From the NCBI RefSeq assembly GCF_002072955.1, contig NZ_LPUF01000001.1:2254896-2318895 (forward strand): a stretch of 64,000 nt of DNA, read 5' to 3'. Below are positions 16,627 through 63,217 of this stretch, one piece after another; position 1 is the first letter of the stretch, and each line of letters starts with the position of its first letter. Both the position numbers and the translations under genes were made by a program. The notes below the pieces were generated by a model that made no database searches, had not been told where the DNA came from, and worked only from the letters and a program-made list of their open reading frames with translations. This stretch comes from Methyloprofundus sedimenti. GTDB taxonomy: Bacteria; Pseudomonadota; Gammaproteobacteria; Methylococcales; Methylomonadaceae.

Positions 16627-19062
16627 ATGAATAGATATATCAGTACTAGAATCTATACTATATTAGTAGTTCTTATCATTATTAGTGGCTGTACGACGGT
16701 GTACCAAAAAGCTCAATCGCCTGATTTTGATGCTTTATACGGGCCTTCTTATCCAAAGCAACGCTCACTGCCACCGGATACAAAGCTGGCTAAAGGTGCA
16801 ATTTCCTATCACCAAGACATCAAGCCTATTTTAGACACACGATGTGTCGCCTGTCATGCCTGCTACGATGCCCCTTGTCAATTAAAACTTGGATCTACAG
16901 CAGGTCTGGACAGGGGAGCTACCAAGCAAGTGGTATATGATGGTGCCAGATTAACGACTGTGTCACCAACCCGTTTATTTATTGATGCAACAAGTACTGA
17001 AGGCTGGCGTAATAAAGATTTTTACCCGGTATTGAATGAACGAGAAGATTCAGCCCAGGCAAATTTAAACAATGCGTTGCTAGCAAAAATATTACTTTTG
17101 AAACGTGATAATCCATTGCCTGAGTCAGGAAAGCTGTCGGATTCATTCGATCTCAGTCTGGAAAGAGAATTATCATGTCCAACTGTTGATGAATTTGCAG
17201 AATTTCAACAGAATCATCCAGATTGGGGGATGCCTTATGCCATGCCAGGATTGTCTCTAAAGCAGGAATACACTGTAATGCAATGGTTGCAGGAAGGTGC
17301 AAAATTTGATGCCGGGCCTGTTCCTTCAAAAGGTGCAGTTAAAGCAATTGCAGAATGGGAAAAGTTTTTCAATCGCCAGTCTTTAAAACAACAACTGGTT
17401 TCGCGTTATGTTTATGAACATCTGTTTCTTGGCCATATTCATTTCCAGGGACATTCTAAAAAAGAATTTTATCGTTTAGTACGTTCGACCACGCCACCTG
17501 GCGAAGCTATTCAAGAAATTCCCACTGCGCTTCCCTACGATGATCCTGGTGTTGCTAAGTTTTATTATCGCTTACGTCCGGTTTTAGGTGTTATAGTCGA
17601 TAAAACGCATTTTGTATATGAATTTAGTCAGGACAAAATGCGGCGCTATAAAGAGTTATTTTTTCAAACTGACTATAGCGTCACTAAACTGCCTTCATAT
17701 GAACCTCAAATTGCAGCTAACCCATTTACAAGCTTCACTGAATTGCCAAAAAATGCACGTTATCAATTTTTGCTGGATGATGCCCAGTATTTTATTTCAG
17801 GATTTATAAAAGGACCTGTTTGTAGAGGGCAGGTTGCTCTAAATGTAATACGCGATAGATTCTGGGTAGTTTTCTTTAAACCAGGCGGTCGCAATAACTT
17901 ACCTGGATTCAGTGAGAAATTTGATACTTTCCTGAAAGAACAAGATCCAATATTAAGCCTGCCAGGGGTTGCTGGGGATCAGTTAGGGCTATTTGGCTGG
18001 CGAAAATATAATAAGCTTGCTGAAGATTATCTGAAAAATAAGAACACCTTTGCCAATCAACTTATTGATGAGTATGGTGGTTTTACCATTGATGATATCT
18101 GGGATGGAGAAGGAGTCAATCAGAATGCCGCGTTAACGGTTTTCAGACACTTCAATAGTGCAACAGTAGTCAAAGGTTTAGTTGGAGACACACCTTTAAC
18201 TGGCTGGGTTCTTGATTATGCCCTTTTTGAACGGATTCATTATTTGCTAGTGGCGGGCTTTAATGTTTATGCCTCTGTGGATAATCAATTGGCAACCCGA
18301 ATGTATATGGATTTTTTGCGTATGGATGGAGAGGATAACTTTCTAAGACTACTACCTGATGATCAACGTAAAAAAATATATGACTCTTGGTATAAAGGGA
18401 TTAGTGGAGATATTGTTACTTACTTTGATAAACCCTATTACAGCGCGGGTTATGAGACTGGCGTCATATACAAAACGAGTCATTATAAGCAAGAGTTTTT
18501 TGATCAGGTCAAGCATCGATTAGGTAAAGCTGTGAGCGAGAAGTATGCTTTAGATCGATGTAGTCAGGAAGCCTGCAAAAAAAGCAAAGCATCAGAGTTC
18601 CAAAGAAAAGCAGATATTGCCATGGTTGAACTCTCTAAACTTAAAGGAGAAGAGCTGGACTTGTTGCCGGAAGTGGCTTTCGTCAAGGTGAGTAATAAGC
18701 AGAACAAAACGGCACAGATTTACACACTATTATTAAATAAAGCACTGGAAAATGTTGCGATTATGATAGCCGAGGAATTGCGACGCGAGCCAGCTCTCGA
18801 TACGTTGACAGTAGTGCCCGGATTTATAGGTAGTTATCCGAACTATTTCTTTCATGTAGAAACAGAACAATTAGCTGACTTTATTGCAGCCATCAAATAT
18901 GCACGTACTCCCGAAGATGTAGAGTCGTTTTACCGTAAATATGGCATTCGCCGTACCAATCCAGAAATCTGGCAATATGTTGACTGGTTTAACGAAGAGC
19001 AAAAAAACTATCGTGGCCTGGAAGCAGGCTTATTTGATTTAAATAGATATAACAATTTTTAG
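16627..19062 (+). CDS. cti: Fatty acid cis/trans isomerase (haem-containing lipoprotein)
   Basis: Periplasmic haem enzyme that turns cis-unsaturated membrane fatty acids into trans forms, stiffening the membrane quickly under solvent or heat stress. It has 811 aa. A lipobox (IIISGC, lipidated Cys22) replaces the simple signal peptide, suggesting membrane anchoring. One c-type haem motif CVACH is at residues 73-77, directly after YHQDIKPILDTR, as in known Cti proteins. The long central region with WGMPYAMPGL and PGGRNNLPGFSEKF is family-specific. A haem-peroxidase gene follows on the same strand after about 140 bases. Confidence 0.93.
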   Translation: MNRYISTRIYTILVVLIIISGCTTVYQKAQSPDFDALYGPSYPKQRSLPPDTKLAKGAISYHQDIKPILDTRCVACHACYDAPCQLKLGSTAGLDRGATKQVVYDGARLTTVSPTRLFIDATSTEGWRNKDFYPVLNEREDSAQANLNNALLAKILLLKRDNPLPESGKLSDSFDLSLERELSCPTVDEFAEFQQNHPDWGMPYAMPGLSLKQEYTVMQWLQEGAKFDAGPVPSKGAVKAIAEWEKFFNRQSLKQQLVSRYVYEHLFLGHIHFQGHSKKEFYRLVRSTTPPGEAIQEIPTALPYDDPGVAKFYYRLRPVLGVIVDKTHFVYEFSQDKMRRYKELFFQTDYSVTKLPSYEPQIAANPFTSFTELPKNARYQFLLDDAQYFISGFIKGPVCRGQVALNVIRDRFWVVFFKPGGRNNLPGFSEKFDTFLKEQDPILSLPGVAGDQLGLFGWRKYNKLAEDYLKNKNTFANQLIDEYGGFTIDDIWDGEGVNQNAALTVFRHFNSATVVKGLVGDTPLTGWVLDYALFERIHYLLVAGFNVYASVDNQLATRMYMDFLRMDGEDNFLRLLPDDQRKKIYDSWYKGISGDIVTYFDKPYYSAGYETGVIYKTSHYKQEFFDQVKHRLGKAVSEKYALDRCSQEACKKSKASEFQRKADIAMVELSKLKGEELDLLPEVAFVKVSNKQNKTAQIYTLLLNKALENVAIMIAEELRREPALDTLTVVPGFIGSYPNYFFHVETEQLADFIAAIKYARTPEDVESFYRKYGIRRTNPEIWQYVDWFNEEQKNYRGLEAGLFDLNRYNNF

Positions 19063-31006: not shown

Positions 31007-33472
31007 ATGAATATGTCTAAAACACAAGAATTTAGCCATTTTATAATTAAGCATCAGTTGCAGCGACGCATTAGAATTATTGTGCCAAGTCTTTTTCGGG
31101 ATAAGGAACGTGCGACTATTTTGCAGATTGTGTTGTTAAAAAGAGCAGCGATTGAAGAAGTAAGTTGTGTCTGGCAAATTAATTCCCTCACTATTTATTT
31201 TGATCCTGAACAACTACCTAAAGAAAACTTGTTCAAACTATTAGAGACTGTGCTGGCCAATTTTTCTAAAAAACCGCATGCCAGCATCAGTAAATTTTCC
31301 GCACACCATAAACACCCCGACGGCCCTAAACAGGATGTCGTGTTTGGTATAGGCGGCATGAGCTGTGCTTCCTGTGCCTTATTTCTGGAAATGGTACTCT
31401 CCAGAAACCTTAATAACCAGCATGTCAGCATCAATTATATTTCCGAAACAGGTAATGTCAGCGGTTATTTGACCAAGGAGGAAATATTTAAAATAGTTCA
31501 TGATAGTGGCTATCAGGCATACTCAATCGATACTCTGGCAGAAAGAAAATTATTACTCAAATTCAGTCACAATCACTTACTCAGCACTAAAAAACGCTTG
31601 CTGATCATTACACTACTGGATGTGCCCGTTTTGCTTGCCAGTTTATTTTTTAAAACCAGTAAACGGATGCGATTGATACAGGCACTGTTCAGTTTTCCGG
31701 TGGTATTTTTAGGCGGTGGCGGGGAAATCTTTAAAAAATCCTGGATTCAGGCAAAACAGGGAACCTTGAATATGGATACGCTGGTTGCCATAGGGGCGGG
31801 TTCGGCTTATATGGTCAGTATTCCTGCATTATTCAATGTACGAAAACACGCTTATTTTGAAGCAGCTACTGCAATTATCGGATTTGTCCAGGTGGGTCGA
31901 TATCTGGAGGAATTGGCTAAAAGTAAAATGGTTCATGATGTTGAAGAGCTGGTTAATATGCAGCCGCAAAATGCAACGCTATTAGAAGGTAGAATTGAAA
32001 GCATTATAAGCATAGATAAAATAGCGATAGATAATGTGCTTTTAATCCGCCCAGGCGAGAGAATTCCTGTTGATGGTATCGTGTTGAGCGGGCTTTCCAG
32101 TGTCGATGAGTCAATGGTTACAGGCGCTAATGCGCCCTGCATAAAAGAAAAAGGACACAAACTGTTTGATGGCAGTATTAATGGCAGTGGTGTATTGCGC
32201 ATGCAAGCAACTGCAATTGGTAAAGATACTGTACTAGCAGGCCTTGTGCATATGATTGATCAAACCCAGAGTTCGAAATTACAAATTCAGAAAACGGTCG
32301 ATATTATATCCTCGCATTTAACACCCGCGATTATGTTTTTATCTGTGCTCACATTTGGAGGCTGGGTGATCAGGGGCGAAGCTGTTGCACATGCCTTTGC
32401 CAATGCAATTTCTGTGTTGCTAATTTCTTGCCCCTGCGCTTTAGGTTTGGCGACTCCTGCAGCGACCAGTGTCAGTTCAGGACAGGCTGCGAAGCGCAAA
32501 ATCTATATACGCAATGGCAATGCATTGGAACAAATGGCCGTAATAGATACCATTATTTTTGATAAAACCGGCACGCTAACAGAAGGTCATGCCAAAGTCG
32601 TTGGCTATTTGAATATTTCAGATTTGCAGGACGATTATCTGTTGCAGCTTGCTGCTTCTGTGGAATTTAATTCAGAACATTTGTTGGGCAAAGCCGTGGT
32701 TGAGTATGTAAGAAGTTTGGATCTGCCATTATTTCAAGCGACTAAATTTCATTCTATTCCAGATCAGGGGGTACGCGCGGAAGTCAATGGACATGGTATT
32801 ATGCTGGGTAATGAAAGCTGGCTGCAACAACAGAAAATTGATATGTCGGTTGTCCAAGACACCGCCGCAAATTGGGCTAAACAGGGAAACAACCTGATTT
32901 ATCTGGTTGTCGATAATAAACTTGCGGCATTGCTATCATTAACTGACCAAATAAGAAAAGGTGCCAGACAGTTGATGATTGATTTACATAAGCAAGGTAT
33001 TGAAACGCTGATGCTTACAGGGGACACCAAAGCTTCGGCACAAGTTGTAGCGGATTTGGCTGGAATTGAATCAGTGACTGCCAATGCGAGCCCGGCCAGA
33101 AAAATTCAGTTTATTAGGGATCTACAGACACGGGGTAGAGTGGTGGCCATGGTCGGTGATGGCATTAATGATGCTCCCGCTCTTGCGGCAGCAAATGTTA
33201 GTCTGGTGGTTGGAAATGCTACCGGGATAGCGATTGAAACTGCTGATTATATTCTGGTTGATAGTGATATAAGTAAAGTGGCTGAAGTACTGGATCTCAG
33301 TAAGCAGACATTAACGGTGGTTCAGCAAAATCTGTTTTGGGCATTTGCTTACAATGCGATAGCAATACCCGTCGCCATGACCGGTAAATTAAGCCCGATG
33401 ATTTCATCAGCGGCGATGGCCTTAAGTTCAGTGTCTGTTATTGCCAATTCACTGCGGTTGAATAAAAAATAA
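31007..33472 (+). CDS. Copper-type P1B ATPase with altered actuator motif
   Basis: Membrane ATPase of 821 aa. A degenerate metal-binding-like domain (20-90, no CxxC) is followed by a second with GMSCASC (117-123). The membrane site CPC is at 475-477, with MxxSS (MALSS) in the last helix, both typical of Cu+ pumps. Phosphorylation motif DKTGT (519-523), TGDT (671-674) and hinge GDGIND (717-722) are intact. However, the actuator loop reads VDESMVTGANAP, so the TGE glutamate needed for dephosphorylation is Ala374, and SEHP is SEHL (556-559). It may turn over slowly or act as a sensor; this is inference. An MlaE-like gene follows after 164 bases. Confidence 0.9.
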   Translation: MNMSKTQEFSHFIIKHQLQRRIRIIVPSLFRDKERATILQIVLLKRAAIEEVSCVWQINSLTIYFDPEQLPKENLFKLLETVLANFSKKPHASISKFSAHHKHPDGPKQDVVFGIGGMSCASCALFLEMVLSRNLNNQHVSINYISETGNVSGYLTKEEIFKIVHDSGYQAYSIDTLAERKLLLKFSHNHLLSTKKRLLIITLLDVPVLLASLFFKTSKRMRLIQALFSFPVVFLGGGGEIFKKSWIQAKQGTLNMDTLVAIGAGSAYMVSIPALFNVRKHAYFEAATAIIGFVQVGRYLEELAKSKMVHDVEELVNMQPQNATLLEGRIESIISIDKIAIDNVLLIRPGERIPVDGIVLSGLSSVDESMVTGANAPCIKEKGHKLFDGSINGSGVLRMQATAIGKDTVLAGLVHMIDQTQSSKLQIQKTVDIISSHLTPAIMFLSVLTFGGWVIRGEAVAHAFANAISVLLISCPCALGLATPAATSVSSGQAAKRKIYIRNGNALEQMAVIDTIIFDKTGTLTEGHAKVVGYLNISDLQDDYLLQLAASVEFNSEHLLGKAVVEYVRSLDLPLFQATKFHSIPDQGVRAEVNGHGIMLGNESWLQQQKIDMSVVQDTAANWAKQGNNLIYLVVDNKLAALLSLTDQIRKGARQLMIDLHKQGIETLMLTGDTKASAQVVADLAGIESVTANASPARKIQFIRDLQTRGRVVAMVGDGINDAPALAAANVSLVVGNATGIAIETADYILVDSDISKVAEVLDLSKQTLTVVQQNLFWAFAYNAIAIPVAMTGKLSPMISSAAMALSSVSVIANSLRLNKK

Positions 33473-33636: not shown

Positions 33637-34419
33637 ATGAATTTTTTCGGTTGGGTTGGCCAAAGCTGTATTGCGTCGTTCCTTTACATCATTGACTTCA
33701 CTTGTTTTCTGACGCAGACACTTGCCGTATGGCAGCCTCACCGTAATGTTTTTAACAGGGCGGTCTATTCCAATTTGCTCGGCCAGCTCATTTATACAGG
33801 AATTGATGCAATTGCGATGATTTCATTTCTGGCTGTGCTGGTTGGAATTGGAGCAACTTCTCAACTAATTTATATCATGCAGGCCATAACCGGTGCCGGT
33901 GATTTGACTGAAATTCTTGCCAGACTTGTGGTCAGTGAGCTTGGTCCGCTGATTACCGGAGTCATTCTCGTTGGCCGATCGTGTTCAGCTATTGCTGTTG
34001 ATTTGGGAAATACCAAAGTCCGTGGCGAAATTGAACCACTGGAGTTTCTAGGTATTGATGTAGCTGATTATTTTGTTGTTCCCAGAATAATTTGTATGAT
34101 GATTAGTCAAGTAACACTAGCCCTGTACTTTTCAATTTTGATGGTATTAAGTGGGGTATTTTTTAGTGCATTTATCTATCATTTTTCAGCACAGGAATCA
34201 TTGTTGCAATTGCTAAATAAAATGACTGTCAATGTAGTCATGATTTTTATGCTTAAAAACCTTATTTTTGGTTTGGTAATTGGCGCTCTGGCTTGTTTTC
34301 ATGGGCTTTTAGTAGAAAATTCTCCGACTCAGGTACCGCAACAGATGCAAAAGGCTGTGGTGAGAAGTCTGGTATTTTTATTCCTGGCAGATGGCTATTT
34401 TTTACTCGTCACCTTATGA
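33637..34419 (+). CDS. MlaE-family ABC permease
   Basis: Inner-membrane permease of 260 aa of the MlaE/TrnI family, which moves phospholipids or other lipids between membranes with an MCE protein. Five to six hydrophobic segments are visible. The family's central block is seen as ELGPLITGVILVGRSCSAIAVDLGNTKVRGEIEPLEFLGID, which contains the cytoplasmic coupling helix with Glu and Arg/Lys. It is not obviously degenerate. Its stop overlaps the start of the next gene by ATGA, indicating coupled translation with the MlaF-like protein. Confidence 0.88.
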   Translation: MNFFGWVGQSCIASFLYIIDFTCFLTQTLAVWQPHRNVFNRAVYSNLLGQLIYTGIDAIAMISFLAVLVGIGATSQLIYIMQAITGAGDLTEILARLVVSELGPLITGVILVGRSCSAIAVDLGNTKVRGEIEPLEFLGIDVADYFVVPRIICMMISQVTLALYFSILMVLSGVFFSAFIYHFSAQESLLQLLNKMTVNVVMIFMLKNLIFGLVIGALACFHGLLVENSPTQVPQQMQKAVVRSLVFLFLADGYFLLVTL

Positions 34420-35195
34420 CTGCTGTTACTATTACAGATACCATCAAGGCATATGCAGCTACTCCAGATCCGGGAGATAGTAGTTTGATGTTTCCTTCTT
34501 TAGACTGTCGGATACACTCTAATAGTCTGACCTGTCTGGTAGGGCCCCATCGCTTCCAGTTGAGAGCCTATTTGGAAATGTTAGCCGGCATCAGTAAACC
34601 AAAACAGGGCGAGGTAAAGGTTTTTGGACATATGATCTCAGAGCTTGATAAAGCAGCCTGGCGGAATCTCCGATCGCAAATAGGCTATCTTTCCGGAGCC
34701 TCCCCTTTGTTGTCAGTACAGCACGGATTGATGAATGTGATGTTACCGCTGCTTTATCATCGTCATCTTTCATTCCGCGAGACGGCTGATAAAGCGAGAG
34801 CTTTAATGACTGAATTAAACTGTGATTTTGAGCCGACAACGTTTCCGGCACTGTTAAACAGTTTTCAGCGATCACAGCTCGCCCTGGCGCGTGCCTTAAT
34901 TCTTGATCCTTCCTTACTAATTCTGGATGTCCCATTTCATGACCTCGGAGCGAAGCAGCGAGAGCAAATGGGTAGTTTACTGGGAAAATATAAACACCAT
35001 CGTGCCGTATGCATGATTGGTGGACTTCAATATGCTCACTTTCTGGAGCAGCATGCGAACCAGATTATTTTTATTTCCGAGCATAAAATAATAAATTTCA
35101 GTAGTTGGCAGGCATTTATGCAAACTGAAGACCAGGAAGTTAAGGACTTGATGAATGTTTTTCAGAGTACACCATGGGGCTTAAATGAAAACTGA
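34416..35195 (+). CDS. MlaF-like ABC protein lacking all ATPase motifs (pseudo-ATPase)
   Basis: 259-aa protein with the overall layout of MlaF. An upstream in-frame ATG at 34293 exists, but the ATGA overlap with the permease stop marks 34416 as the start. Where Walker A should be, it has VGPHRFQLRAYL (42-53), with no GKS/T. The signature LSGG is LNSF (147-150). Walker B keeps LLILD (167-171), but the catalytic Glu is Val172. The H-loop position reads MIGGLQ, with no His, and the Q-loop Gln is absent. ALARALILDPSLLILD and GEVKVFG still identify the fold. The frame is clean and both neighbours overlap it, so it is unlikely to be a dead gene; it probably serves as a structural, non-hydrolysing subunit. 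Confidence 0.85.
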   Translation: MTAVTITDTIKAYAATPDPGDSSLMFPSLDCRIHSNSLTCLVGPHRFQLRAYLEMLAGISKPKQGEVKVFGHMISELDKAAWRNLRSQIGYLSGASPLLSVQHGLMNVMLPLLYHRHLSFRETADKARALMTELNCDFEPTTFPALLNSFQRSQLALARALILDPSLLILDVPFHDLGAKQREQMGSLLGKYKHHRAVCMIGGLQYAHFLEQHANQIIFISEHKIINFSSWQAFMQTEDQEVKDLMNVFQSTPWGLNEN

Positions 35196-36204
35196 TCCAG
35201 CAAGAAAAACCGGACCTTATATGCATAAGGTTACTTACAATTACCGTGAGCGGATTGTAGGCTTTTTTGTTATTTCTGCTTTTGTATTGTTCTCGCTACT
35301 TATCATCATCAGTGGTAGAAACCAGCATTTTTTTGAAAAACAAGTGACTTATTATATGGATGTTACCAGTACCGAAGGAATTAGCCAGGGGAGTGTTGTC
35401 AAGGCATTAGGAAATGAAGTAGGAACAGTAACAGCCATGAATCTCAGAGAAAACAGTAAAATTCGGGTTACGATTGAAGTTTATGCAGGAAGCCAGGCTT
35501 TTATTAGAACCGGAGCAAAGGTAATAGTTAACAGGTTAACCAATATTAGCGAAGCATTAATTGAAATAAAGTCTGATTCGATAAATGCACCCGTGTTAGC
35601 GGAAGGAAGTGTTATACCCGTAGATGAGACCCCATCATTAAATGATTTGTTACTGGGTGTTGCACATATTATTCAGGCAGCAGACAGGCATGACCTATTA
35701 AACAAGCTAGAAACTCTATTACCAAAACTGGAAGTAACCATAGAAAATGCACATAAAATTATCGCACAAATAGCGACTGGGCATGGAGTTCTCGGGGCGG
35801 CCGTTTTCGACAAACAGGTGGAAAAAGAGTTAAAGGTTGTTGTTACCTCAGGTGCAGAAATTTTGCAGGAAGCTAAAGGCACTGTCGGTCTAGCTAAACA
35901 GAGACTGATTCAAATGGAACCTTTGTTAAATGATGCTCAATATATAAGCCAGGATATACGTATTGCCTCACAAAATATTCCAGCGATGGTTAAAAATCTG
36001 AACGAAATCATTGAAAAAACTAACACCGCTATAACGCTGATCAACAGCGAATTAGAACATATTCCGGGCACAATTATTGATACTAGAAGAACTTTAAGCA
36101 AAACTGATCACTTAATAGATAGCGTTCAAAGTACATGGCCCTTGTCGAATGATATTGATAAAAATAAACTTAATCTGCTGATTCCAGTACACCCTCTACC
36201 ATGA
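35185..36204 (+). CDS. MlaD-like MCE-domain protein
   Basis: 339-aa protein with a short cytoplasmic N-terminus, one membrane helix (about residues 28-45) and a periplasmic MCE domain (about 55-130: YYMDVTSTEGISQGSVVKAL, GTVTAMNL, RLTNISEALIEIKS). A long helical, coiled-coil-prone tail follows. MCE proteins bind lipid and form the periplasmic tunnel for MlaE/MlaF. The start at 35185 overlaps the MlaF-like stop by 11 bases and has a GGGGC upstream; an internal ATG at 35221 is an alternative. The stop overlaps the next start by four bases. Confidence 0.9.
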   Translation: MKTDPARKTGPYMHKVTYNYRERIVGFFVISAFVLFSLLIIISGRNQHFFEKQVTYYMDVTSTEGISQGSVVKALGNEVGTVTAMNLRENSKIRVTIEVYAGSQAFIRTGAKVIVNRLTNISEALIEIKSDSINAPVLAEGSVIPVDETPSLNDLLLGVAHIIQAADRHDLLNKLETLLPKLEVTIENAHKIIAQIATGHGVLGAAVFDKQVEKELKVVVTSGAEILQEAKGTVGLAKQRLIQMEPLLNDAQYISQDIRIASQNIPAMVKNLNEIIEKTNTAITLINSELEHIPGTIIDTRRTLSKTDHLIDSVQSTWPLSNDIDKNKLNLLIPVHPLP

Positions 36205-37151
36205 TAAGGACATATATCAAGGCATGTTTGCTAATCTTTTCTTTCATGCTTTCAGCTTGTGGCGGTAATACTGTTACCAAATCGCCAGTCATACTGGATG
36301 CAGAAAGTGATATGAATAATGGTTTGCAAGCATTTGCGGATGCTGACTGGAGCAGTGCTCAAAGTTTTTTTAGCAGGGCATTGTCACTATACGAAGGAAT
36401 AGACAGTCAAAAGGGTATTCTATATAGTCATATTAATCTGGCTGAAGTGGGGTTATCTGTTGGTAACTATCAGGCAACTCAGTTACATCTGGAGCGTGCC
36501 GGCATAATTGCAAAAAATGTCGAATTCCAGGATTATCAACCACGTATTACCCTGCTATTAGCGCAAAGTATACTTCAACAACAAGACTATGTTCAGGCTG
36601 AAAAAATATTGCAAGCGTTGCTTCCAGAGTTCAATGAACTGATACCCGTCAATACACCTGACACAATACAGTTGACTGCTATTGCAAGCCGAACCAGAAT
36701 TGCATTTGCGCAGCAACAGGACGAGTCAAAATGGACTCAACGCTATGCTCAAGCATTGACCAAATCGGATAGCAATTCTGTTGCTCTAGAAAGCCGTTTG
36801 CTGCGTTTTCAGGCTGAACTACTGCGGAGGGAACAGCATTTTAGAGACGCTGAATCTCATTTGCAGCGTGCGCTTACCGGGTATAAAGCGATTTCTTCAC
36901 GTGCGGATATCGCAGCGACACTTGCAGAGTTAGGATGTCTTTCGGCCCAGGGTCATTGGCAGGATGCGCAGGGATATTTTATTCGATCCAATAAGGTATT
37001 TAGTTATATTGGAGATATTGACGCTATTATCAATAATACAAAACTCCTGATTAGAGTGGAGTTGCAATTGGGAAATCTTGAGCGCTGTAACTCATTAACA
37101 AAGCGGCTGACAGAAATACAAAAAGAACATCTGCAAGAAGTGGAGAAATAG
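36201..37151 (+). CDS. TPR-like lipoprotein, last gene of the MCE operon
   Basis: 316-aa predicted lipoprotein: signal peptide with lipobox LSAC (Cys20). The rest is helical with TPR-like repeats, such as MNNGLQAFADADWSSAQSFFSRALSLYEG, LYSHINLAEVGLSVGNYQATQLHLERAG and AESHLQRALTGYKAI. ATGA overlap with the MlaD-like gene shows translational coupling. MCE operons often end with an outer-membrane lipoprotein, but those I know carry a different (ABC-type auxiliary) domain, so the TPR form is unusual. It may bridge the MCE complex to the outer membrane; this is inference. Confidence 0.7.
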   Translation: MIRTYIKACLLIFSFMLSACGGNTVTKSPVILDAESDMNNGLQAFADADWSSAQSFFSRALSLYEGIDSQKGILYSHINLAEVGLSVGNYQATQLHLERAGIIAKNVEFQDYQPRITLLLAQSILQQQDYVQAEKILQALLPEFNELIPVNTPDTIQLTAIASRTRIAFAQQQDESKWTQRYAQALTKSDSNSVALESRLLRFQAELLRREQHFRDAESHLQRALTGYKAISSRADIAATLAELGCLSAQGHWQDAQGYFIRSNKVFSYIGDIDAIINNTKLLIRVELQLGNLERCNSLTKRLTEIQKEHLQEVEK

Positions 37152-56724: not shown

Positions 56725-57774
56725 ATGGTATAGTTTCCGTCGACTAAAACCTGAAACTAAAAAGAGGTGCTCAATGAACACGTTTAACCATCTAACCCAA
56801 GAGGAAAGATTTTACATTTATACGCAACTAAAACAAGGCGTTTCTAAGAATCAAATAGCCATCACATTGGGGCGTCATAAATCGACTATTGGACGTGAAA
56901 TTACGCGTAATACAGGTCAGTGTGGTTATCGTTACAAGCAAGCTGAGAGAATAGCTAAACAACGCCATATTGATAAGCCCAAAAACATCAAGATGACGGC
57001 TGAGTTACAACAGATAATAACGCCTTTAATCAAAGAGAAATGGAGCCCTGACTGTATTTCAGGACGCTTAAAACAACAAGGTAAGGACTCCGTCAGTCAT
57101 GAGACTATTTACCGTTATATTTTAGCTAACAAAGCAGCCGGTGGCGATTTGTATACTTATTTGAGGCATCAAGCCAAACCTTATCGTAAGCGATATGGAA
57201 AAAATGATTATCGCGGAACGATACCCAGCCGTGTTGATATTGATGAGCGACCACAAGTGGTTGATGATAAAACGCGTTTAGGTGATTGGGAAGCAGATAC
57301 TGTTATCGGTAAAGGACATAAAGGCGTATTGGTGACGCTGACTGAACGGGTCTCAAAGCTCAACTTCGCCATCTCAATTGAGCGTAAAGAATCTGAATTA
57401 ACGAAAGAGGCGATTATCAATGCTCTTGAGCCTTTTAAACGTTGGGTTCACACGATTACCTTTGATAATGGACGTGAGTTTTGTGGGCATGAAGCCATTG
57501 CAAAAACACTTGACTGCGGCACTTATTTTGCCAAACCGTATCATTCGTGGCAACGAGGTTTAAATGAAAACCACAATGGCTTATTAAGGCAATACTTCCC
57601 TAAAAAAGAACCTTTGGATAAGGTAACTCAAGATGAGGTTGATAGTGCCATTACAGCACTTAATCATCGTCCAAGAAAAGGGTTAAATTACAGAACTCCA
57701 TGGGAAGTATTTTGCCAAATAACGGGGGTTGATATAAATAAATCACAGGGTGTTGCATTAATTGCTTGAATTCG
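56684..57774 (+). mobile_element. IS30-family insertion sequence
   Basis: About 1091 bases. Left end CGAATTCATATAATAACTGCAACACC and right end (reverse complement) CGAATTCAAGCAATTAATGCAACACC match at 21 of 26 positions, with perfect outer 8 and inner 9 bases. They flank one intact transposase gene. Target duplication cannot be defined with certainty; GTA/TAC-like bases lie on both sides. The short, near-complete repeats and open transposase suggest a recent insertion. Confidence 0.85.
56774..57769 (+). CDS. IS30-family transposase
   Basis: 331-aa DDE transposase. An N-terminal HTH (LTQEERFYIYTQLKQGVSKNQIAITLGRHKSTIGREI) binds the ends. The DDE residues are seen in GDWEADTVIGKGHKG, ITFDNGREFCGHE and RGLNENHNGLLRQYFPK. 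Frame intact, ribosome site AAAGAGG about seven bases before the ATG. It occupies almost the whole element. Confidence 0.95.
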   Translation: MNTFNHLTQEERFYIYTQLKQGVSKNQIAITLGRHKSTIGREITRNTGQCGYRYKQAERIAKQRHIDKPKNIKMTAELQQIITPLIKEKWSPDCISGRLKQQGKDSVSHETIYRYILANKAAGGDLYTYLRHQAKPYRKRYGKNDYRGTIPSRVDIDERPQVVDDKTRLGDWEADTVIGKGHKGVLVTLTERVSKLNFAISIERKESELTKEAIINALEPFKRWVHTITFDNGREFCGHEAIAKTLDCGTYFAKPYHSWQRGLNENHNGLLRQYFPKKEPLDKVTQDEVDSAITALNHRPRKGLNYRTPWEVFCQITGVDINKSQGVALIA

Positions 57775-60898: not shown

Positions 60899-60987
60899 AT
60901 AAATACCTGACGTGAATTTTTAGCTGCATTTGTCGGGTTATAGTTTATAAATCGGGTCAGAGGGAGCCCCGCAGCTCCCGTCTGCCC

Positions 60988-61023
60988 ACAGAACCGTGCG
61001 TACGGGTCCGTACACGGCTCCTC
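60988..61023 (-). ncRNA. Group II intron domain V
   Basis: The minus strand reads GAGCCGTGTACGG, a short ACC turn, then CGTACGCACGGTTC, forming the conserved 30-34-base catalytic hairpin with the AGC triad at its foot. It directly touches the RT stop codon, as in many bacterial introns. Confidence 0.85.
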
Positions 61024-62335
61024 ACGCAAGACGTATCCATTGAGAAACTTCAAACCAATGCTCTAACTTTCGGTCGGATCGTATTTCCTGCCCTTTCAGA
61101 TTTATAAACCAACTGTTCGGATAAGCCCTCGTCACTGCTCGCGCATTGGAGAGTTGCCACCGTTTGTTGTTTGAAAAGACGGCTTTTGATGCTTGTTTTC
61201 GTGGTACGCCCCGTTTGACCAGTTTTCGATATAGATGCTGTTTTCTCTTTTGTTGATCGACTATTCGTGATCGTAGTCGTCGCCTGATATGGGCTTCGAT
61301 TTTATTCAATTGTGAGGGGTAGTAAGTCAAACTGTAGTAATTTGACCAGCCCACATACCATTGATTGATCTCGTCCAGTGATGTATCCAGAGTCTGATGT
61401 GTACCTCGCGGTGTCAGTGCTTCGATTTTACTCATGGCTGTTTGCAGGGCTTTATGCGCAATGGCAATTGTCCCCTTAACCACGGTAAAACCTAAAAACT
61501 TTACCGCATCGGATTTAGCCACCTGGCTTTTCTCCTGATTCACTTTCAGTTTCAGCTTCTTTTCGATGAATTGGCTGACTTTTTCCATCACTCGATCTGC
61601 CGCTTTTTGCGATTTTACGAAGATATTACAGTCGTCCGCGTACCTGCAAAATTCCAGTCCACGTTTTTCCAATTCCTGATCCAGTTCATCCAGAACGATA
61701 TTGCTCAGCAAGGGACTGAGTGAGCCCCCTTGCATTGCGCCTTCCTTGCTGGGGTTGACGATGCCATTGATCATGACGCCGCTACGCAACCTGTTTCCGA
61801 CTAGGCGAAGTATCCGTTTGTCGGATATTTTCTCGCCCATTCGGGCTATCAGCCTGTCGTGATGGATTCTATCAAAAAACTTGGATAGATCTATATCCAC
61901 CACGTAGGGCTTGCCACTGTTCACTATCTGTTGTGCCGCTTGTACCGCTTCGTGCTGGCTTCGCCCTGGGCGAAATCCATAGCTGTGCGGTGAAAAATGC
62001 GGATCAAAGACCGGTTCCAGCAGTAGCTTTAATATTGTTTGTACCACTCGATCCCGTACCGTCGGTATGCCGAGTAGTCGTACACCTTTGCCTCCCGGCT
62101 TGGCTATTTCTACTCGACGGACTGGCGAGGGTTGATAAGTCCAGTTTGCGAGTTCCTCTTGCAACTGACTTAGCTCTTCGTCTAAACGAGTTTCAAAGTC
62201 TGCAATGGTTATTCCGTCTATGCCGGGTTTACCTTTGTTTTTCTTTACCTGTTTAAAAGCGACGCCCAAGTATAAGGTTGAGCATAACTGGTCGAAAAGT
62301 CTGGGTTCCTCTATTAATAGGTCGTGTTCGTTCAT
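61022..62335 (-). CDS. ltrA: Group II intron reverse transcriptase/maturase
   Basis: 437 aa. RT domains: GKPGIDGITI (RT0-1), GVRLLGIPTVRDRVVQ (RT2), YGFRPGRSQHEAVQAA (RT2a-3), VVDIDLSKFFDRI (RT3), GAMQGGSLSPLLSNIVLDELDQEL (RT4) and catalytic FCRYADDCNIF (RT5). VKFLGFTV (RT7) and the maturase domain (LDEINQWYVGWSNYY) follow. No endonuclease domain is visible at the C-terminus (ends VSQWIRLA), so integration would be endonuclease-independent. The frame is intact, so the element may be active. Confidence 0.95.
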   Translation of the reverse strand: MNEHDLLIEEPRLFDQLCSTLYLGVAFKQVKKNKGKPGIDGITIADFETRLDEELSQLQEELANWTYQPSPVRRVEIAKPGGKGVRLLGIPTVRDRVVQTILKLLLEPVFDPHFSPHSYGFRPGRSQHEAVQAAQQIVNSGKPYVVDIDLSKFFDRIHHDRLIARMGEKISDKRILRLVGNRLRSGVMINGIVNPSKEGAMQGGSLSPLLSNIVLDELDQELEKRGLEFCRYADDCNIFVKSQKAADRVMEKVSQFIEKKLKLKVNQEKSQVAKSDAVKFLGFTVVKGTIAIAHKALQTAMSKIEALTPRGTHQTLDTSLDEINQWYVGWSNYYSLTYYPSQLNKIEAHIRRRLRSRIVDQQKRKQHLYRKLVKRGVPRKQASKAVFSNNKRWQLSNARAVTRAYPNSWFINLKGQEIRSDRKLEHWFEVSQWIRLA

Positions 62336-63217
62336 TTCACTTTTTTTTCTTTCTTTTGCAATGGGCTTTCTTCAATCTCGCACAACCGATTCGTTCACTG
62401 TTTACGACGCGAATAGAGGGTTGTTCCTGTTAGGCTGATCTCAGTCCATCAGTTTATAATCAACGGCCATGGCCGCTTACGTGTTCCGCCCTTCACCTCC
62501 AACGTCCTGTTGCTGATTTGATGTTTTACCCTCCTTCATGTCACCATGAATTCATCGGCACCAAACTTTACGATTACTATGGCTTCATCTGAAAACCCTC
62601 GGTTCATAACGTCTACATTACTGTAGCGCTTAGGGCTTAAGGAGTCGCAGTTACTCCGACCCAAAGCCGACGGCTCTTCACTGGGTAAGATAGTCAACTA
62701 TCTCTCGATCTACCTACCTTCAATACAACAACACGTTACGGTGAGAATATTGGACTTCGGTGGTCGCGGGCACCTTATCCCCTTGTTGCCGCCTTACGAA
62801 GGTTCACTTTCGTTTAGGTGATCGATTTGGCTAGAGCTTCCTTCAGATTCCGCATTGGCTCCCAATAACCGTGTTTCCCTGTTGGGTAGCTACCGGGAGT
62901 TTCTTTGGACACCCTTGCTTTCGCCTACTTTTTCCCTTCTCACAGGGCAAAGGCTGGACTTCCACCAGCTAGCTGACTATCATGCCAGTCACACCGCTCA
63001 GATTTCGACAAAACACCCGGCCTACGACTATGCGAAGGTCGGTGAACGTTACCCATCCGCTAAAGCTGCTTCGTTTCCTGTCTGCCCTCCAAGCAATGAA
63101 TACTTACCTTGTAGTTACTGACTTGATGGGCCAGGGTATCAATCCAGTTACCTGTGATTGCTCCGGGGCGCCTCAGGTTTTTGGTTAGAACATAGCGAGA
63201 TTCAGTTCCCGGTATAG

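Follow-up and report, generated by a model that had tools for sequence, protein, structure and literature searches.

An MCE operon of Methyloprofundus sedimenti encodes an intact MlaF-like protein, here called pseudo-MlaF, in which the motifs needed for ATP hydrolysis have been replaced. The operon lies in a stretch of 64,000 nucleotides, referred to as the window, which is the whole DNA analysed. The reading that we consider likely is that pseudo-MlaF is a pseudo-ATPase and serves as a clamp, within an MCE conduit for lipids that runs without ATP hydrolysis. Beyond what had been noticed from the letters of the window, which formed the original prediction, the loss was found to be subfamily-wide and seemingly staged, and the branch of the window goes together with a TRAP transporter.

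Operon organisation

In the window, an MlaE permease and an MCE-domain protein recognised by Pfam share one operon, as in Mla-type MCE systems (Table 1), and knowledge of the MCE family suggests that the substrate would be a lipid. The mlaD-like protein combines the MCE domain with a long C-terminal extension conserved among orthologues. The TPR lipoprotein carries a lipobox-like Cys20, invariant across 17 aligned rows, and would be expected at the outer membrane given that Gly, not Asp, follows this residue. Neither mlaB nor mlaC was seen in the window operon, and no STAS domain was found by Pfam on the mlaE-like permease.

Table 1. Genes of the MCE operon, with positions in the window
Feature	Position	Strand	Length	Evidence
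mlaE-like permease	33637..34419	+	260 aa	Pfam MlaE, 147.6 bits; presumed coupling-helix segment conserved
pseudo-MlaF gene	34416..35195	+	259 aa	ABC-ATPase fold; motif alignment, Pfam, AlphaFold2, Foldseek
long mlaD-like MCE protein	35185..36204	+	339 aa	Pfam MlaD, 42.7 bits, residues 53-129
TPR lipoprotein	36201..37151	+	316 aa	Pfam TPR_12, 37.3 bits

Loss of the ATPase motifs in an intact frame

The pseudo-MlaF frame opens with ATG, contains zero internal stops and shares 4 bases with mlaE and 11 with mlaD, which agrees with the clean, overlapping frame originally described. The intact MlaF of locus L001, from the same genome, served as reference for the motif alignment, and the motif names are given to the positions of pseudo-MlaF that we take to correspond to them. 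Walker A reads GPSGTGKTT in the reference and GPHRFQLRA in pseudo-MlaF, with the Gly, Lys and Thr of the P-loop gone; the Q-loop Gln is replaced by Gly94, the signature LSGG by LNSF, the catalytic Glu by Val172, the D-loop Asp by Gly178 and the H-loop His by Gln205, while the Walker B Asp171 is retained. The original prediction had stated that every ATPase motif is replaced, and the replacements that it named are right by this alignment.

By descent and fold, pseudo-MlaF belongs to the MlaF/ABC-ATPase family, as it scores above the cut-off of Pfam ABC_tran (34.5 bits, E 3.6e-8, cut-off 25) and its top Foldseek match is an MlaFEDB chain. As an active ATPase it does not, since Walker A, the Q-loop Gln, the signature, the catalytic Glu and the H-loop His are missing, five out of five. 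The NCBIfam MlaF model yields only 38.8 bits against a cut-off of 441, and LolD and other models score higher. Judged from these residues, ATP binding and hydrolysis in the manner of ABC proteins are not to be expected of pseudo-MlaF, and the window operon would not be an Mla-type system powered by ATP hydrolysis in its own nucleotide-binding domain (NBD). In E. coli, the MlaF mutants K47A and E170Q (Walker A or B mutants) are described in PMC7367683 as giving no complementation, and therefore pseudo-MlaF should not support an ATP cycle.

Predicted fold and probable docking on the permease

The structure predicted by AlphaFold2 from the family alignment (pLDDT 90.1, pTM 0.87) has its best Foldseek match in 6xbd_I, an MlaFEDB chain (E 2.7e-18, TM 0.85). 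MlaFB (6xgz) and the Mce1 complex (8fed) are the other leading matches, the 6xbd and 6xgz chains being taken as MlaF from their length and title. Generic ABC ATPases come close behind in the Foldseek list (MacB, E 5.5e-17 and up), and a PDB profile search with the family returned at least 500 sequences, the best 60 being ABC proteins in general, with no discrimination among them. The fold thus firmly indicates an ABC ATPase, whereas MlaF is indicated just by the ranking of the matches.

Segment 98-116, after the Q-loop, presumably faces the coupling helix of MlaE, a reading taken from general ABC structures. It is the best kept of six segments measured, with a mean majority residue of 0.74 versus 0.49 for the whole protein, and N107, Y114 and H115 are kept in 36 of the 36 subfamily members. 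In the presumed coupling-helix segment of MlaE, the subfamily has an invariant Glu (35/35, compared with three canonical MlaE); the coupling helix of E. coli MlaE is reported to join TM2 and TM3 (PMC7790496). Pseudo-MlaF probably still docks on the MlaE permease.

Proposed mechanism

Because these segments of pseudo-MlaF and MlaE are retained, pseudo-MlaF is most likely a structural clamp or gate, which would hold the MlaE dimer and aid assembly of the MlaE-MlaD complex. Lipid would pass along the MlaD/MCE tube without ATP hydrolysis, the long C-terminal extension of MlaD may reach the TPR lipoprotein, and the net direction would have to be set by a difference in concentration or by some other source of energy. 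In the branch of the window, a co-inherited TRAP transporter (AdeT1_2, fused DctQM, helical lipoprotein) might draw the substrate from the periplasm with ion-gradient energy. The data themselves comprise the loss of motifs, the selection, the operon, an MlaF-like fold by prediction, the conserved segments and a link to TRAP that is both statistical and physical; docking, complex assembly, the lipid substrate, and passive or TRAP-driven transport are the elements that we infer.

MCE systems without an ATPase are known. PqiA and LetA are described in PMC12436622 as having no ATPase domain, and for PqiA the driving options named by the authors of PMC10897342 are passive transport, an unknown ATPase and the PMF. 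Among the power options put forward in the original prediction, a non-hydrolysing subunit and passive transport fit the present data, whereas a borrowed ATPase is less likely, since each intact MlaF of the genome lies beside its own MlaE.

Orthologues in Methylococcales

Ten of 11 loci from close relatives carry a close form of the protein, with 60-75% identity over the best segment, and the remaining locus holds a generic ABC ATPase; the sources were a Methyloprofundus MAG, Methylomonas, other Methylococcaceae and Methylococcales MAGs, one Gammaproteobacteria MAG and the Bathymodiolus platifrons symbiont. A family profile search of 311 Methylococcales genomes (E 1e-30) located 27 places in 25 genomes. 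Group I, the close form in which GPHRxQLR or a very similar sequence stands in place of Walker A, is present in 16 genomes, while groups II and III comprise six and four places, respectively. None of the places inspected individually in the three groups has Walker A, the signature or the catalytic Glu. Beyond these groups, G070 retains Walker A and the Glu.

Homologues with the same loss, which the original prediction had proposed to look for beside MlaE and MlaD genes and across species, were found in a recurrent four-gene operon, and the motif loss is common to all 16 Methylococcales genomes with a group I orthologue, G007 being scored to codon 199, before the H-loop. The group I copy of G007, which matches locus L045 of the Bathymodiolus platifrons symbiont, is frameshifted. 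At the loci of this symbiont (L037/L045, L123), the listed mlaE frame extends over only 200 aa and a helical lipoprotein gene of the TRAP cluster is broken in two; the MCE system is in apparent decay in this host-bound organism.

A wider subfamily and apparently staged loss

At class level, 30 matches were obtained among 369 genomes (E 1e-26 or better), and the window and ten other contexts were inspected. Seven of these ten have the four-gene operon, with a short TPR gene (136 aa) in G393, and G492, G471 and G454 are ordinary ABC ATPases with intact motifs. The phylum-level search gave 49 matches among 299 genomes (1e-33 or better), of which the window, G676, G836, G706, G951, G816 and G471 were inspected, the other 42 scoring near ordinary ABC ATPases; one of the five new contexts has the operon, that of G676, which belongs to another class. 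In the order of G435, nine of 20 genomes were matched, and all eight inspected have the operon, the ninth being G965. Searches for more relatives of G676 and of G393 gave only each genome itself. The MCE subfamily, in which the sequence of the sole NBD predicts an inactive enzyme, thus extends beyond Methylococcales to further orders of the class and to a single member of a different class.

The usual layout of the subfamily comprises four genes, for MlaE, the MlaF-like subunit, a long MlaD and a TPR lipoprotein. Exceptions are G106 (L112) and G070 (L113), with no mlaD or TPR gene seen alongside and with contigs that continue, and G012 (L117), which has pseudo-mlaF, mlaD and the TPR gene with no mlaE seen next to them; some further loci are cut by contig ends. 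At L112, mlaE and pseudo-mlaF stand alone and adjoin genes resembling mobile elements.

Motifs were counted over 36 members, leaving out G644, whose MlaF-like N-terminus is out of frame, and the partial L036 copy. Walker A is present in 4/36, the Q-loop Gln and the signature in 0/36 each, the Walker B Asp in 21/36, the catalytic Glu in 5/36 and the H-loop His in 3/36, and 31 of the 36 lack all five of Walker A, Q-loop Gln, signature, Glu and His. All seven canonical controls have all six motifs scored. The four with Walker A (G393, G350, G676 and G070) also have the Glu and have lost the signature and the Q-loop Gln. These MlaF-like subunits, encoded at L196, L157, L156 and L113 (the last in G070), are possibly ATP-binding, non-hydrolysing intermediates.

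In the MlaE tree, built without the partial G107 and with no MlaE row from G012, the 35 subfamily rows fall on one side of a branch versus three canonical MlaE (support 100/100), and the 13 rows of group I cluster in a single clade (100/100). Walker A changes five times on the best tree and two to five times over 1000 bootstrap trees, with G644 and G446 unscored and with counts that do not separate gain from loss. Forcing the rows without Walker A into one clade was rejected with a p-AU of 0.002, an optimistic value as the clade was named post hoc. The distribution suggests an early loss of signature and Q-loop followed by several later losses of the P-loop, on a tree whose basal MlaE branches are unresolved and long.

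Alternative readings and selection

A working ATPase could be borrowed, with a canonical MlaF from another Mla locus pairing with pseudo-MlaF, so that a live half joins a dead one as in heterodimeric ABC exporters, or sometimes replacing it. The MCE ATPase MceG is shared in mycobacteria, which provides a precedent; the genome of the window has three intact MlaF genes, and the presumed coupling-helix segment is kept in MlaE. These genes, however, belong to three further MCE loci of the ordinary kind, where each intact MlaF lies beside its own MlaE, and the fourth-best match of the MlaF model in the genome is far weaker, at 118.7 bits. Moreover, a pair of a live and a dead subunit needs complementary motifs on the dead half, and the 31 members above keep none; in the subfamily loci inspected that have mlaE on the contig, an NBD-like gene directly follows it. 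A borrowed motor is therefore improbable.

About equally improbable is a pseudo-MlaF that still holds ATP, or some other nucleotide, in a modified pocket and uses it for structure or regulation with no turnover. Across the subfamily, the Walker B Asp is found in 21 members and a full P-loop in four, so that some members may bind nucleotide. The four members outside group I with Walker A and Glu make it plausible that the ancestor bound ATP, and the altered P-loop GPHRxQLR is well conserved in group I, as if selected. In the branch of the window, however, the P-loop Lys has become Leu and the Ser/Thr has become Arg, and a nucleotide pocket of this composition is not known to us.

Nei-Gojobori estimates of dN/dS for the pseudo-MlaF gene are 0.06-0.15 in the seven pairs with finite dS, with one further pair at saturation; mlaE gives 0.02-0.15 in eight pairs and mlaD 0.07-0.14 in five of seven, with two saturated, all values being approximate with synonymous sites near saturation in most pairs. 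A ratio near 1, as named in the original prediction for relaxed selection, was not found. Because orthologues in separate assemblies carry the same changes and dN/dS is so low, a pseudogene at an early stage, or an error in sequencing or assembly, is very unlikely and was rejected: the frameshifted symbiont copy and some loci without neighbouring genes indicate that the system can decay, but the operon is retained in most loci. The original prediction had argued against a pseudogene from the clean frame. The clamp without ATP hydrolysis remains the preferred reading.

Association with a TRAP transporter

Many group I operons adjoin genes for a fused DctQM permease, an AdeT1_2 (PF19582) binding protein and a helical lipoprotein. 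At L043, PF19582 scores 302 bits and DctM 57 bits, as befits a TRAP cluster, and the same cluster occurs in the genome of the window (G000), on contig C4, separate from the MCE operon. This cluster (L106:8671-15383) contains two AdeT1_2 genes, two helical lipoprotein genes and one DctQM permease gene, and neither lipoprotein is matched by any Pfam or NCBIfam model.

AdeT1_2 is found in 20 of the 311 Methylococcales genomes, namely in 14 of the 16 genomes that have a group I gene versus 6 of the 295 others (Fisher p 7e-18, kinship ignored); group I occurs without it in G006 (66% complete) and G192 (85%). In ten of the 14, no more than 4 kb separates the AdeT gene from that of pseudo-MlaF, and in G000, G007, G269 and G301 the two are on different contigs. 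L044, apparently a contig of G269, has a DctQM piece upstream, the DctQM frame of L125 ends 10 bases before mlaE, and at L040 and L049 the MCE genes are inside the TRAP cluster, between the lipoprotein gene and AdeT-DctQM. Among nine genomes of genus g3 matched by the family profile, eight combine group I with AdeT1_2, and both are missing from the remaining one (G266).

No TRAP gene was seen on nine group II/III contigs or at 14 loci outside groups I-III, several of these contigs being short, nor on the group I loci L035, L036, L050 and L124. Outside Methylococcales, AdeT1_2 is present in 4 of 273 genomes of the class, and no MlaE or MlaD was seen near it at the ten loci inspected. TRAP is therefore not the general energy source of the subfamily, as none was seen at group II/III contigs and loci outside groups I-III. 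In the branch of the window, a TRAP transporter as energy source is plausible. The further idea of a hybrid MCE-TRAP lipid machine, in which the motor was lost in stages and an ion-driven TRAP transporter now pulls transport, is tentative and rather doubtful.

The cluster resembles TPAT-type TRAP systems (TatT, TatP, TatQM), described in PMC5812351, in which a binding protein, fused DctQM and an extra helical lipoprotein gene are clustered; in contrast to these, the group I cluster goes with an MCE operon and its lipoprotein has no significant TatT match by Pfam, NCBIfam, PDB profile search or Foldseek. The label TatT, given from the position in the cluster, was dropped. Searching the genome of the window with PF16811 (TatT) gave other loci only, below the cut-off, and the model of the lipoprotein (pLDDT 76) had nothing in Foldseek at E 0.001, with BstC (7t1s) at rank 40 (E 0.2). 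A weak PF16811 match below the cut-off, perhaps BstC-like, lies elsewhere in the genome (contig C1:336458-336769, L228). BstC is a sterol-transport protein of Methylococcus capsulatus classed with TRAP T-components in PMC10942540, and a hydrophobic substrate is thereby conceivable, although none of the searches above relates the lipoprotein of the cluster to BstC.

Comparison with known transport systems

The degenerate nucleotide site of heterodimeric ABC exporters, which keep one working site per transporter, recalls the lost catalytic residues of pseudo-MlaF, but in the window operon the only NBD gene is predicted to be dead. MlaFEDB of E. coli, Pseudomonas and Acinetobacter shares with the window an MlaE permease, an MlaF fold and the MCE protein MlaD in one operon, and the 6xbd and 6xgz chains are the closest to the predicted structure; it differs in that the window has an MlaF-like subunit without the ATPase motif set, a long MlaD, a TPR lipoprotein gene after it, and no mlaB or mlaC seen in the operon. 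The chimeric Mla-Pqi system Mpc of Brucella likewise has four genes, which encode a permease, an MlaF homologue, an MlaD homologue of 331 aa and a lipoprotein according to PMC12436622, whose authors propose that the system bridges the periplasm. The same source describes a well-conserved ABC transporter with the ATPase MpcF, a permease that bears a STAS domain and a lipoprotein resembling PqiC, whereas in the window operon the ATPase motifs are gone, the permease has no STAS domain by Pfam and the lipoprotein is of TPR type. PqiABC and LetAB are alike in being MCE systems described as lacking an ATPase (PMC10897342, PMC12436622), but PqiA and LetA are without an NBD and are not MlaE-like, while the window operon pairs an ABC-type permease with an apparently dead NBD.

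Neither a dead-NBD MCE system nor an MCE-TRAP cluster was found in the titles and abstract openings of the open-access papers that the searches listed, a scope that leaves subscription papers and preprints mostly outside. Catalytic mutants of E. coli MlaF are reported not to support Mla function (PMC7367683), yet judged from its residues a conserved MCE subfamily exists with a dead NBD. The subfamily is thus a natural test of the role of the MlaF fold apart from hydrolysis. It also offers a test of possible working modes of MCE systems that lack an ATPase, Pqi and Let among them, and of the direction and energy of MCE lipid transport, and its members with Walker A and without signature may represent intermediate states. 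The TRAP link, if functional, would mean that a primary active transporter has been recruited as part of a secondary active one.

Genomic surroundings of the operon

A P-type ATPase gene upstream of the operon (31007-33472) was considered as a partner motor and rejected: tblastn found no relative of it on L125 or on the 11 group I contigs with MCE genes that were checked (L035, L036, L037, L039, L040, L042, L043, L046, L047, L049 and L050). Distant P-type ATPases on L109 (group II; 35% identity, about 1.4 kb before mlaE) and L124 (group I; 30% identity, about 6 kb from mlaE) are taken as chance neighbours.

About 15 kb from the MCE operon, the window also holds a membrane-lipid gene, that of a fatty acid cis/trans isomerase (CTI, 897 bits; 16627-19062, + strand). 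An outer membrane efflux gene (PF02321; 12091-13403, - strand) is seen as two neighbouring frames (330 and 98 aa), which suggests an interruption. Mobile elements are represented by a transposase-like gene (56774-57769, + strand), with HTH_38 and an integrase-core match below the cut-off, and by a group II intron (60951-62865, - strand), with a reverse transcriptase/maturase (RVT_1, GIIM) and two Rfam intron matches.
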